Shown here in pieces: positions 7,227 through 59,737 of a DNA stretch of 64,000 nucleotides. The position numbers and the translations under genes were made by a program. Position 1 is the stretch's first letter. Every line of letters begins with the position of its first letter. The notes under the pieces were generated by a model. The model did no database searches, was not told the origin of the DNA, and saw nothing but the letters and a program-made list of their open reading frames with translations. The stretch covers positions 48,248 through 112,247 of the forward strand of contig MGPE01000002.1 in NCBI GenBank assembly GCA_001797335.1, written 5' to 3'. The DNA comes from Deltaproteobacteria bacterium GWA2_38_16. Lineage in GTDB: Bacteria; Bdellovibrionota; JACOXK01; 2-02-FULL-40-11.

Positions 7227-8606
7227 TTAATCTTTGGGTAAAATTGGATATCGATCATCAAAACAGGCCGTACAAAATAAACTCCGTTCATTTTTCTCAA
7301 CCTGTAAAAGCCCCTCTAATGACAAATATCCCAAACTATCTACTCCTAAAAAATGTTGAATTTCTTGCCGATCTTTTGATGATGCAATTAACTCTGACTT
7401 TGTAGGAGTGTCAATGCCATAAAAACAAGGACCTATTGTAGGGGGTGCCGAGACACGCACATGAACTTCTTTGGCTCCGTATTGACGTAAGAGCTGAACA
7501 ATTTTTTTAGATGTTGTCCCCCGGATAATGGAGTCATCTACCATCACAATCGATTTTCCTTCTAAAACTTCACGAATGGGATTTAATTTTATTTTTACCC
7601 CAAAATTTCGAATGGCCTGTTCGGGCTCAATAAACGTTCTTCCAATATAATGATTTCGAATAATTCCCATTTGAAAGGGAATCCCCGATTCCTGAGAATA
7701 ACCAATTGCGGCTGGCACTCCTGAATCTGGAACGGGAATAACAATATCCGCTTTGGCAGGATGTTCCTTGGCTAATTGCTTTCCAAAAGAAACTCTCATT
7801 TCATAAACATTTTTTCCAAACACAACACTATCGGGTCTAGCAAAATAAATATGCTCAAAAATACAGTGTTGGGTTTTGGTTTTTAAAAAAGGCTTTAAAC
7901 TCTTTATCCCTTTTTCAGAGATAATCACCATTTCCCCTGGCTCAATTTCTCGAATACATTTGGCTCCCATTAAATCAAAAGCCGTGGTTTCAGAAGCAAC
8001 CACCGATGCTCCTTTTAATTCTCCCAACACCAATGGCCTAAATCCATAGGTATCACGCACACAGATTAATTCTTTTTGGGATAAAAATAAGAGTGAGAAG
8101 GCCCCTTCTACTTCTTTTAAAGCATCTGTAATCCTCTCAGAAAATGTGTCTTTTTGAGAGCGAGCAATGAGATGAAGAATAATTTCTGTATCAGAAGTGG
8201 TTTGAAAAATAGTCCCGGATTTTTCAAGTATTCGTTTAAGACTGACTGCATTGGTAAGATTTCCATTGTGCGCAAGGGCGAGCCATTGGTTGCCAATATT
8301 CACAAGTAACGGTTGAACATTTTTTAAAACATCATCCCCTTGGGTAGAATAGCGCACATGACCAATAGCGGTATTTCCTTTGAGACGATTTAGATTTTCT
8401 TCATGAAAAACATCATGAACCAATCCCAGCCCTTTTTCGATGTGATGTTTCTTTCCATCATAAGAAACAATCCCTACGCCTTCTTGTCCTCGATGTTGGA
8501 GTGCATAGAGTCCCAAATAAGTAAGATTGGCCGCTTCGGGATGACCAAATATTCCAAAAACACCACACTCTTCTTTCAGCTTTGAGTTAACAGACCAGCT
8601 TTTCAA
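7227..8606 (-). CDS. purF: Amidophosphoribosyltransferase
   Basis: PurF commits PRPP and glutamine to phosphoribosylamine, the first purine step. The N-terminal glutaminase domain begins after a short propeptide at [10 protein letters not shown], where the cysteine becomes the N-terminal nucleophile. The PRPP loop is [15 protein letters not shown]. Four cysteines placed as in the Bacillus-type enzyme (in QHCIFEH, GPCFYGI and the C-x-x-C of LFCTACFDD) should bind a 4Fe-4S cluster. The 459 residues match the family. It overlaps purL by 20 bases and leads directly into the haem genes, so purine and haem synthesis share a transcript. Confidence 0.97.
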
Positions 8607-10836
8607 AAGAACTCTCCCAAAGGGTTTTGAGGGGCATCATATCTATATCCACTCCTGGTTTCCAAACAAAGCGATACTGAGCAGTCACTTCACCCAGGAT
8701 TTCAAAGGGGGTGGAATGCCTTTCTACTACAGTTTTGAGCTGAGGTAAATAGGCTCCAGATACGCTCACCACCACTCTCGAGGGTGCTTCTATCAGCATG
8801 CTTATTTCTTCTTTTTTAGGTTCTTTTTTATTTGGATCTATTTTCACTCCCAGATTATTTTCAAAAGAAGATTCTAAAAGTGCCATAAGAAGTCCACCCT
8901 CAGAACAATCATGAGCAGAAGAAATTATTTTTTTTGAAATTAATTCTAAAAGAGCTTCTTGCACTTTCTTTTCAAGTTCCAAATTTAATGATGATAAGCT
9001 TTCTCCTAGAAGAATAATAACATCTCCAGCCTGTTTAAAACCATGAGTCATTCGTAATTCGATATTTGAGATAAGCCCTACCATTCCAATCGTGGGAGTC
9101 GGATAAATAGACTCGCCATTGGTTTCGTTATAAAAACTCACATTCCCACTCACCACCGGAATATTAAAATATTGACATGCATGGGAAATCCCTTCCACTG
9201 ATTTTTGAAACTGCCACATGATTTCGGGTTTTTCAGGATTTCCAAAATTAAGGCAATCTGTAAGCCCAATAGGAGTAGCCCCGACACAGGCTAAATTCCG
9301 GGCGGCTTCACAGACGGCCATTTGTGCACCTATGTAAGGATCCTCTTTACAATAAACGCTGTTACAATCCGTGGTAATGGCTAAGGCTTTTTTTGTACCC
9401 TTCACACGAATCACAGCGGCATCTCCTCCGGGGAGGATGACAGAGTCGTCTCGAACTTGATGATCGTATTGGCGATAGATCCAGCGGCGGGAGCAGAGAT
9501 TAGGGGAGGCTACAAGCATCTTAACAATGTCTTCTAGAGAAGATGACTCATCTACTCTGAGAGACCCTCTCGCAGGACGAGCGGGCATGGTTCCGGAGGA
9601 GAGCGAGTCCGAGAGGGAGCGCAAATTCCTCGCAGGGGAATTTGATAGCGTGTCGAGAAGAGTCGATGAGTCATCCTCTCTAGCAATATTGTTTGGTGCC
9701 TGCATAGGTCTCTCATACATCGGGGCGGCTTCGGTCAACGCTTTCACCGGAATATTGGCCACTTCTTTTCCCTTAAATTTCACCCGAAACCTTCCGTCAC
9801 CTGTCACCTTTCCAATCACCGCCATATCTAAATCCCATTTACGAAAGATTTTTTGAACATATTTCTCGTATCCCTTTTTCACCACCAAAAGCATTCGTTC
9901 TTGAGATTCCGACAGTAAAAATTCATAGGGAGTCATGTTTGTTTCTCGTGCCGGAATTTTTAAAAGATCAATAATAATTCCATTGCCACTACGTCCTGCC
10001 ATTTCTACCGATGAAGACGTCAGCCCAGCAGCACCCATATCTTGAATCCCTACCACATAGGTTTCTTTCATGACTTCTAAACACGCTTCTAATAATAATT
10101 TTTCAGTAAACGGATCTCCCACCTGCACCGTTGGTTTTTTGGATTGGGCTTTATCGTCAAATTCTTGAGAAGCCATCGTGGCTCCATGAATCCCATCTCT
10201 GCCCGTTTTAGATCCTACATAGATCACTGAATTTCCAACACCCTCTGCTCGACCTAAAAATATTTTATCTTTCTCGGCTATCCCCAAACAAAAAGCATTG
10301 ACCAAGGGATTTAAATTATAAGATTCATGAAAATAAACTTCCCCCCCAACAGTGGGACACCCAAAACAATTTCCATAGCCAGCGATTCCACGCACCACTC
10401 CTTCCACTAAAAATTTTGTTTTGGGATGAGCGGGAGAACCAAACCGAAGTGAATTTAAAAGTGCAACCGGACGTGCTCCCATCGTAAAAACATCGCGAAG
10501 AATTCCTCCTACTCCGGTAGCAGCTCCTTGATAAGGCTCTATAAAGGAGGGATGATTATGGCTTTCCATTTTGAATACTGCCACCTGATTATCTCCAATA
10601 TCCACCACTCCGGCATTTTCTCCAGGTCCCTGGACAACTCTTGGGCCTTTTGTTGGGAATTTTTTAAGATGAATCCTAGAACTTTTATAGCTACAATGCT
10701 CAGACCACATCACCGAAAAAACACCTAATTCTACACCATTAGGTTCTCTTTCTAAATACTTAATAATATTACTGTATTCTTCTTTAGTTAAGCCGTGAGA
10801 AGCAATAATTTCAGGCGTAATGGATGTGGGCGCCAT
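8587..10836 (-). CDS. purL: Phosphoribosylformylglycinamidine synthase large subunit, with embedded palindromic element
   Basis: PurL is the ATP-dependent synthetase that works with PurS and PurQ to make FGAM. The 749-residue small-PurL type begins with [14 protein letters not shown] and contains the AIR-synthase-like ATP regions [19 protein letters not shown] and AHDCSEGGL. Between the two halves, residues about 385-435 ([10 protein letters not shown] to [10 protein letters not shown]) are foreign: they are encoded by the GC-rich hairpin at 9534-9683, in frame, in a surface linker. PurF follows with a 20-base overlap. A TTGCTT/TACACT pair 17 bases apart upstream of the ATG may be the operon promoter. 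Confidence 0.96.
9534..9683. repeat. Palindromic in-frame element, copy A (inside purL)
   Basis: A 92-base GC-rich core (9563-9654, 57 of 92 bases G or C by hand count) is flanked by inverted arms 9534-9558 and 9659-9683 that pair at 23 of 25 positions. The core recurs inverted at 58812-58903 with one mismatch. The arms are unrelated to those of the other copy and encode purL-like residues on both sides (REDDSS and RVDESSS). The whole unit is 150 bases, a multiple of three, and purL stays open through it. The closest known analogue is the Rickettsia palindromic element, which also inserts in frame into conserved genes; sequence relationship to it is not implied. Confidence 0.9.
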
Positions 10837-19908: not shown

Positions 19909-20189
19909 ACCCTGTCATCCTGGCATGCTCTGTCATCCTGAGCAGAGCGAAGGATCTCAAAAGAATAATTTTCAATGACGGTATTGGCCAAAAGCTCATC
20001 ACACATTTTTTGAATTTGCTTTTGGGCTTGAGATTTTTTAATGGATTTATCTATTTTTACTTCAATATATTTCCCCACACGGACATCGCTAATGTTTTTA
20101 AAACCTAGAGAGTTTAGGGATTTTTGGACAGTTTTCCCCTGGGGGTCTAGTACGCCTTCTTTAAGTGTAATGTATATGCGAGCTATCAT
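19905..20189 (-). CDS. purS: FGAM synthase small subunit, with repeat-derived tail
   Basis: PurS bridges PurL and PurQ in the three-subunit FGAM synthase. Residues 1-77 match the usual length and pattern ([21 protein letters not shown], ending near [11 protein letters not shown]). Residues about 78-94 ([16 protein letters not shown]) are not PurS-like; they are encoded by an interspersed repeat at 19913-19957. The tail ends on the ATGA overlap with purQ, so the repeat insertion has kept translational coupling. Confidence 0.93.
19913..19957. repeat. Interspersed TGTCATCC...GGATCT repeat at the end of purS
   Basis: A full unit, TGTCATCCTGAGCAGAGCGA followed by AGGATCT (19931-19957), is preceded by a partial second unit (TGTCATCCTGGCA, 19913-19925). 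Repeats of this form occur in many bacterial genomes. Here it supplies the last 16 or so codons of purS. A related unit interrupts argS. Confidence 0.8.
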
Positions 20190-20205: not shown

Positions 20206-20295
20206 GGAGCTGACATCTTTTATGCCCCTGCTTCATGGCTCGGCCCCGAAGGCCTGCGCTTTACTTCAGCAAAGGTCATAAAAGATGTCAGCTCC
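20206..20295. repeat. Perfect 19-base inverted repeat with GC-rich loop between purC and purS
   Basis: Arms 20206-20224 and 20277-20295 are perfect complements (GGAGCTGACATCTTTTATG and its reverse complement). The 52-base loop is GC-rich (32 of 52 by hand count) and contains GGCC-CCGAA-GGCC. One arm overlaps the purC stop codon. On the minus strand the loop is an open micro-ORF of 19 codons starting at ATGACCTTTGCTGAAG. The architecture, GC-rich core between locus-specific arms, parallels the elements in purL and the kinase. It would form a strong hairpin in the purC-purS mRNA. Confidence 0.85.
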
Positions 20296-57483: not shown

Positions 57484-57932
57484 CCATAGAGCTTCTCATT
57501 GAATTTTCTTTATGGCTAGAACTGTTGGCCCTCTCTTTAGAAGCAGGATTAGATTTTACAAGTTCTCTAAAAGAACTTACTAAACTTACTTCCACCTCTC
57601 TTCTCCATCCCACCTTTATGTTAATGCTTTCTCATTTAGAGTTAGGAAAACCAAAACAAGAAGTTCTCAAAACTATACAAAAACAATTTCCCCACCCTCT
57701 CATTGAAACGTTTTGCCAAACGCTTCTTTTTGGATGGCAACAAGGCATTGGAATTAGCCCTCTTCTCAAAGAACAAGCAAGTCACATTCGAACCGTCACC
57801 TATTTTCAACTTGAAAAAAATATTCAAAAAAACCAATTAAAACTTTTACTTCCCTTATTCTTACTCATTTTACCGGCTGTCATCCTGGTTATTTTAACAC
57901 CGCTCATGATTGAGCTTATTGGAAATATATAA
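57480..57932 (+). CDS. TadC-like T2SSF inner-membrane platform protein, short
   Basis: The 150-residue protein starts at ATG 57480, overlapping tadB (ATGA). The T2SSF domain begins with FSLWLELLALSLEAGLDFTS, includes LLFGWQQGIGISPLLKEQAS, and ends in a C-terminal membrane helix (LLPLFLLILPAVILVILTPL). It is about half the length of usual TadC. An upstream extension to 57336 in this frame is a shadow of tadB. Confidence 0.72.
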   Translation: MTIELLIEFSLWLELLALSLEAGLDFTSSLKELTKLTSTSLLHPTFMLMLSHLELGKPKQEVLKTIQKQFPHPLIETFCQTLLFGWQQGIGISPLLKEQASHIRTVTYFQLEKNIQKNQLKLLLPLFLLILPAVILVILTPLMIELIGNI

Positions 57933-58524: not shown

Positions 58525-59737
58525 CATTATTTTTTAAAATTTGATTTTCTTCAATGGCAATGGCCATTTTTTTTGCTTGTTTAAGAATGGGATTAGACAC
58601 AGTAAGCATGTATTTTCCTGTGGGAAGAGAGGCGCGAATGAGAGGAGTCGTACCCACGTAAGTGTTTTCCACATAGACCTCTCCCCAGGGCTTGGCATTT
58701 AGGGTAAGATAACCTTTGGGGGAAAAAGCCGGCGGCCTGCTCCCAAAGAATATGCATATAAATAAAAGCACCCCAATGCTTAAAGATGAGAGTATCTTAT
58801 CTATTCCTAAAGACACGCTATCAAATTCCCCTGCGAGGAATTTGCGCTCCCTCTCGGACTCGCTCTCCTGCGGAACCATGCCCGCTCGTCCTGCGAGAGG
58901 GTCTTTCAGAATAGATAAGACACCCTCATCTCTTAGAATGAGTGTTCTTTTGGGTTTCCACGGAATATATGTCTTCAGAAACTGTGCAAATTCTCTCTGA
59001 GTGACAAAACTTTGTTTGCGCTTCACTTCTTGAAGCAGCGCCTCTTCAAATTCCTCACACGTTTGAAATCTCTCTGAAGCCAATTCCGTCAATCCTCTCT
59101 TTAAATACTCCACCTTCTCTGCCAATAGTTCCTGCAAAACCACCGCCAAGGAATAAAGATCACTGGCATAGGTGAGTATTTCTTTTCGACGCTGCTCAGG
59201 AGACATATACGACTCTTTTCCTTTTAAAAATTGAGTCGGTTCCAAAGAAGCCGATTGAAGCTTGGCCACTCCAAAATCTGTCAGCTTCACTTCCCCTGCT
59301 TTAGACAATAAAATATTTGAGGGGCTAATATCCCGATGTAAAACCCCTTTTTTATGTGCATATGAAAGCCCTTTTAAAATCTCTAACCCAATATAAAGCA
59401 CAAAGGACTCTGGAATCGCCCCTGCTTTTTCAATCAAATCTAAAAGACTTCCCCCTTCCACATATTCCATAGCTAAAAAATATCCAGAATTGGATTTCCC
59501 AAAATCATACACCTGCACAATGTGGGAGTGATTAAGGAGAGACATAATTTTAGCTTCATTTAAGAAAGAGTCCACCCAGCGAGGATCATGTTCATAATGC
59601 TCTAAAATTTTTTTAATGACGACAGGCCGAGTAAATCCCTCTGAAGTAAACATGGCCTTATAAATATGAGCCATGCCTCCGGTGGAAAGAAGTTCTAAGA
59701 CCTGATAGCGAGAACCAAAATTATTTTTTTTGTTCAT
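58511..59737 (-). CDS. Ser/Thr protein kinase with PEGA domain, interrupted by palindromic element
   Basis: The 408-residue protein starts at ATG 59737. Kinase domain, about residues 8-250: glycine loop LSTGGMAHIYKA, lysine in VVIKKIL, HRD in GVLHRDISPSNILLS, DFG in KLTDFGVAKL, and YMSPEQRR. Residues about 269-318 come from element copy B, inserted between kinase domain and membrane helix. A membrane segment (SIGVLLFICIFFGSRPP) then leads to a periplasmic PEGA domain (LTLNAKPWGEVYVENTYVGT). It is divergent from cbs and faces the Tad cluster; a role in regulating the pilus or cyclic di-GMP genes is inference. Confidence 0.9.
   Translation of the reverse strand: MNKKNNFGSRYQVLELLSTGGMAHIYKAMFTSEGFTRPVVIKKILEHYEHDPRWVDSFLNEAKIMSLLNHSHIVQVYDFGKSNSGYFLAMEYVEGGSLLDLIEKAGAIPESFVLYIGLEILKGLSYAHKKGVLHRDISPSNILLSKAGEVKLTDFGVAKLQSASLEPTQFLKGKESYMSPEQRRKEILTYASDLYSLAVVLQELLAEKVEYLKRGLTELASERFQTCEEFEEALLQEVKRKQSFVTQREFAQFLKTYIPWKPKRTLILRDEGVLSILKDPLAGRAGMVPQESESERERKFLAGEFDSVSLGIDKILSSLSIGVLLFICIFFGSRPPAFSPKGYLTLNAKPWGEVYVENTYVGTTPLIRASLPTGKYMLTVSNPILKQAKKMAIAIEENQILKNNVTFQ
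58784..58931. repeat. Palindromic in-frame element, copy B (inside the kinase gene)
   Basis: Core 58812-58903 matches the purL core in inverse orientation at 91 of 92 positions. Arms 58784-58811 and 58904-58931 pair at 24 of 28 positions but share no sequence with the purL arms. The kinase reads the core on the opposite strand from purL, and both frames are open. Confidence 0.9.

Follow-up and report, generated by a model that had tools for sequence, protein, structure and literature searches.

The insert at 9534-9683 of the window (the whole 64-kb stretch of DNA analysed) is a hairpin-shaped element of about 150 bases that lies in frame within purL, with two 25-nt arms, 100 nt apart, flanking a GC-rich core. 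The core belongs to a dispersed, conserved family, while the arms are mostly private to each copy, and where species share an insertion locus the arms have changed by mirrored substitutions and the cores have been inverted. It is rather probable that repeated template switching at the folding core keeps the arms matched, flips the cores and, at least sometimes, makes the arms. The earlier note on this DNA had described a palindrome with paired arms in purL and had reported that its core recurs in another gene between other arms, and both descriptions were confirmed (Table 1): the arms pair inside the purL ORF, and the second copy matches the purL core on the minus strand at 58812-58922 (95.5% identity over 111 nt), with arms that differ from those of purL. 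The core span takes in the inner arm pairs, together with the G/A-rich internal loops where arm and core meet. Four palindromes of comparable strength occur in the window, compared with none or one in shuffled sequence.

Table 1. Coordinates in the window of the purL element, the second copy and their host genes.
Feature	Position	Strand	Description
purL-copy left arm	9534..9558	+	Private to the purL copy
purL-copy right arm	9659..9683	+	92% complementary to the left arm
Conserved core	9552..9664 (contig 57799-57911)	+	Covariance-model match
P2 branch of core	9565..9617	+	CCCTCTCG...CGAGAGGG, variable apical hairpin, conserved GAGCGGGCATGG/GAGCGAG
P3 branch of core	9619..9651	+	AAATTCC/GGAATTT hairpin, conserved loop CTCGC(A/T)GG
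purL host gene, 749-aa ORF	8587..10836	-	Frame open throughout the insert
Second copy with its own arms	58784..58931	-	23-bp arms, 2 mismatches
Second-copy host gene, protein-kinase-like ORF, 422 aa	58511..59779	-	Insert in frame, adjoins a hydrophobic stretch

A DNA search of the genome containing the window (G000; G001-G006 are the genomes of relatives compared) recovered six copies of the purL-element core, hereafter family A, and a covariance model built from those six recovered eight. The same kind of search, which the earlier note had proposed for the genome and its relatives, found 6-22 copies per genome in 7/7 relatives of the same class. Beyond the class, the covariance model gave one weak match among the 39 genomes searched, and a pattern scan of GTDB species matched at least 111 stretches. 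Among the matches listed, going by their record titles, many phyla carry the core, Patescibacteria (many lineages) and Omnitrophota foremost, besides WOR-3/Stahlbacteria, Bipolaricaulota, Saganbacteria, Actinomycetota and Deltaproteobacteria MAGs; seven genomes taken from these matches hold 4-32 copies each. One pattern match (L229) was discarded, as it looks like a chance GC-rich match. The family A core appears to constitute a large undescribed family of structured nucleic acids in Patescibacteria, Omnitrophota and others; the open-licence literature held nothing relevant on palindromic elements of these two phyla, and a description may exist elsewhere.

Genic hosts of the element include purL, pabB, lpxB, PBP, ctaA and the kinase gene, with the inserts in frame, and copies were also found in divergent promoter regions. 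Neither a transposase nor a function was found for it. A phage or plasmid vector was rejected, given that the core had no match in IMG/VR (searched with a single exact pattern) or in phage and plasmid collections (searched with a consensus query). The assemblies are MAGs, and the presence of orthologous palindromes in independent assemblies argues against an assembly artefact. Three copies on contig C1 of G000 (71645, 94700 and 99247) lie within 28 kb of one another, and their arms are more alike mutually than are those of other copies, as if the element had spread locally.

The fold of the core is a three-way junction, in which P1 runs into the arms and the P2 and P3 branches bear the conserved motifs given in Table 1. 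Double compensatory changes were present in 30 of the 31 pairs in an alignment of 81 copies. The core pairs comprised 189 G·T cells compared with 17 A·C cells, or 74 compared with 17 once two near-fixed G·T columns were removed, the pair counts being inflated because the alignment was fitted to the structure. This excess of G·T over A·C indicates that constraint acts on a single strand of the core, in the form of either RNA or single-stranded DNA. The GC skew of a complete Omnitrophota chromosome was too irregular to read a replication-strand bias of its copies.

The arms, about 20-27 bp long, follow another pattern. For genomes with locus-specific arms, the complementarity score within a copy is mostly 12-36, with a cross-copy median near 1, and within-copy complementarity in G000, G001, G004 and G005 holds at 0.90-0.96 through the first 20 nt, beyond which it drops to background. 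In genus g2, arms at different loci resemble one another at close to the background level, and a search with 32 arms in five genomes gave strong matches at each arm's own locus only. The own-copy complementarity and the 32-arm search thus support the expectation of the earlier note that the two arms of a copy covary and belong to that copy alone. The arms of different copies in G000 are not wholly unrelated, since their inner parts are related and between-copy identity decays outward from 0.81 to background (about 0.3). Arms are also common to the copies in G006, in most of G002 and in several distant genomes, Omnitrophota ones included, which indicates that arms can be copied along with the core. 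Arms identical in most copies, an outcome that the earlier note had named as contrary to its reading, were not seen in G001, G003, G004 and G005, while copies in G006 and most of G002 do share arms.

Two further families have unrelated cores and the same architecture as family A. Family B (GGGCCCCTCCGCCCNGTGTNGATCCTCCCA; GC-rich core of 30 nt, private arms) gave 36 matches in six genomes (G000, G001 and G003-G006; L386-L405), and family C, with the loop GGCATTGCAATTCGA, gave 35 matches in G002, its copies having recognisably related arms. Mean complementarity between a copy's own arms, out of 26, was 20.6 for family B and 22.8 for family C, compared with 11.8 and 13.8 across copies. Nine family B cores in G003 are identical over 30 nt, and the arms examined are unrelated between copies, some of them being perfect within their copy. 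None of the family B copies fetched lies inside a long ORF. One locus carries family A in G001 and family B in G004 and G005. Given that families A, B and C are alike in build, the behaviour of the arms is not a trait of one particular core.

Four loci (purL, pabB, L047/L050/L059 and lpxB-lpxK) carry the element in two or three species. Over eight comparisons, which are mutually non-independent, orthologous arms differ at 59 positions on one side and at 56 on the opposite side; of these, 51 share a column and 45 mirror each other exactly, compared with an estimated expectation under independence of about 22 and about 7, respectively. At each of the four loci the core lies in opposite orientations in different species, and several cores are closer to another copy in their own genome than to their orthologue, as with the purL core of G000 (0.96 to the own-genome copy vs 0.84 to the orthologue). 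The purL insertion is old, being present whole or partly deleted in G000, G001, G004 and G005; its own origin is thus not readable, and the change that is visible is later and concerted. Polarising the purL arms through relatives was abandoned, as the insert is incomplete in G001 and G004 and the linker of G003 is not alignable.

The cleanest pair of filled and empty sites is the purS-purQ junction, occupied by a family B copy in G001 (C99:2231) and without the element in G004 (C85). The G004 junction reads CCCCATTTCATAATTCTTCTCATCTCTTATTTCTTCGC, and at the filled site ATAAATCTTTTCATCTCTTAT on one side is the host stretch around the purS stop, with its reverse complement on the other side. One arm is thus host sequence and the other a reverse-complement copy of it. 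Later loss in G004, with one arm left behind, is a conceivable though less likely alternative, considering that G000 and G006 differ in the purS-purQ spacer. At the same junction in G000, where G001 has its family B copy, there is a TGTCATCCTGAGCAGAGCGAAGGATCT-type repeat (L454 257-300; C2 about 68157-68200; window about 19910-19953).

Neither arm is present in the empty site at five intergenic sites (G001_C60_6485, G001_C116, G005_C33, G001_C37 and the family B site L388). The inserts in pabB, purL, lpxB, PBP and ctaA lengthen their genes by about one core, which, the linkers being variable, is suggestive of both arms lying within the native linker length. Probably both routes occur, with some arms made from the target and others carried along. 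The empty sites are 71-84% identical to the filled ones, a divergence too great for reading a short target-site duplication. The proposal of the earlier note that one arm is copied from the other side at insertion therefore agrees with the family B copy at purS-purQ and does not extend to a general rule, given the five empty sites and the recognisably related arms of family C and some family A genomes; template switching, which it had offered as one possible agent, also fits the mirrored substitutions and core inversions. An apparent empty paralogue of G001_C136 (L311) was uninformative for the right arm, as its right flank is not homologous. The right flank of G001:C136 (1742-1864 of the sequence used as query) contains a repeat of about 120 nt (GCAAGGAAGGCAACGACGAACATGCGAGGCGTACTTACTGG...), separate from the element, which recurs in G000, G003, G004 and G005.

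Under the favoured reading, the inherited part would be the conserved, strongly folding core (a three-way junction of about 100 nt with one strand constrained), and the arms would be no fixed part of the element. During replication of the core-bearing strand, the core would fold and the nascent 3' end could jump onto the opposite flank, copying 20-30 nt of one flank as a reverse complement on the other side. Such copying could build arms from the target at a new site, and at an old site the same event would correct mismatches, giving rise to mirrored substitutions and sometimes to core inversion. Template switching can create and maintain stems (PMC8794818), and in yeast genes it homogenises inverted-repeat arms and inverts spacers (PMC8604942). 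Template switching would then be the agent here as well, possibly in common use for building arms at insertion, and some strand-specific step would move or conserve the core. Against this reading, the host-made arm is clean in one case only, in family B and not in family A; the five intergenic empty sites lack both arms; and copies have arms in common within family C, G006, most of G002 and several distant genomes. A generic template-switch model also leaves unexplained the cross-phylum conservation of the core loops and the movement of the core. We propose more tentatively that these are dispersed elements without ends of their own, in which inheritance is confined to the folding core and each insertion generates fresh arms from 20-30 nt of target, with no dedicated transposase; the unrelated cores A, B and C would share this process in one lineage, and family A would have spread across candidate phyla.

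It is conceivable, though unlikely, that arms and core instead move as one MITE-like unit with its own inverted repeats, whose arms, free in sequence, drift fast and are kept palindromic by correction or selection, so that old copies look unrelated. Shared arms among copies of family C and among those of G006, G002 and Omnitrophota genomes, the related inner arms of G000 and the empty sites lacking both arms are consistent with such a unit, but the G003 family B copies combine identical cores with unrelated arms, host sequence equals one arm at purS-purQ, and the coding inserts show no added length for arms. An origin in which cores invade the loops of pre-existing host hairpins, such as transcription terminators, so that the arms are ancient host stems, is the least credible of the explanations considered. 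One orthologous site (L300) does have a 23-bp palindrome that encloses a 16-nt loop and no core, and sister species do have different core families at the same locus; however, this idea is already weakened by empty sites without a hairpin, by the rarity of coreless long palindromes in the 619 kb examined, and by copies in coding genes and divergent promoter regions.

Selection on a transcript might also preserve arm pairing, the element being a structured RNA, and the strong covariation, the conserved loops and the preference for G·T over A·C on one core strand would suit this explanation, which we nonetheless regard as improbable. Of the 17 genic copies, 9 have the core in sense orientation relative to the host gene and 8 in antisense, evidence against a function within the host mRNA, and the core changes orientation at orthologous loci. 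Outer-arm mismatches comprise 36 G·T, 33 A·C and 75 transversions, a spectrum that indicates no strand-specific pairing selection on the outer arms, and RNA selection on the arms was rejected for this lack of wobble bias. A known RNA family was likewise set aside, since six copies searched at E up to 5 had no relevant match in Rfam. This evidence counts against transcript selection on the arms, not against the core being an RNA.

Like MITEs, the elements are short, non-coding and multi-copy, with inverted repeats at both ends. The ends of MITEs are common to the copies of a family, whereas those of the present elements are mostly not shared among copies, such shared terminal repeats being absent in G001, G003, G004 and G005 and present in G006 and most of G002. 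The Rickettsia palindromic elements, suggested previously as an analogue in where they land, are an apt comparison: they are (Ogata 2000, 2002 via PMC10969869) palindromic, about 150 bp long, inserted in frame in unrelated metabolic genes and have no transposase of their own known, and the present elements also lie in frame in unrelated protein genes, those named above and others. The differences here are the arms private to each copy, the mirrored change and the three-way-junction core across many phyla; no Rickettsia occurs among the GTDB matches listed, although Rickettsia genomes were presumably in the scan.

REP/BIME sequences with RAYT and CGTC-tagged repeats are also dispersed palindromes, some intragenic, and the CGTC repeats too lack a dedicated transposase, but REPs measure 20-40 bp and carry a fixed tag, GTAG or CGTC, at the end (PMC3733652), in contrast to the present element, which spans about 150 nt and lacks an invariant tag of this kind. 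The 81-copy core alignment has no invariant end tetranucleotide, with CCGTC, CCCTC and CCATC all occurring at the CGTC position. RAYT/Y1 was rejected as a universal partner, since PF01797 was not found in G001, G002, G005 and G006, which carry 6-22 copies, their 61-93% completeness making this absence short of proof. Arm homogenisation and spacer inversion, as in the template-switched inverted repeats of yeast (PMC8604942), both occur here, and the coding palindromes of Nematomorpha mitochondria (PMC6649704) are likewise long palindromes in working genes; in both of these systems the spacer is apparently no dispersed repeat, whereas here each palindrome has a repeated conserved core.

If the favoured reading is correct, a mobile repeat with host-derived ends can exist, and transposon searches by shared termini would miss such repeats. 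At orthologous loci, the mirrored substitutions and the flipped cores would then provide a many-copy natural record of bacterial template switching, and the elements would illustrate in-frame entry of such inserts into core metabolic genes (purL, pabB and lpxB). In the purL of G002 (L118 1355-1532), two adjoining in-frame hairpins, which have one 15-nt loop in common but differ in their arms, add a long linker to PurL. A further palindrome in the window (20206-20295), with perfect 19-bp arms and a GC-rich 52-nt loop (CCCCTGCTTCATGGCTCGG...) unrelated to the purL-element core, may represent yet another family with this architecture.
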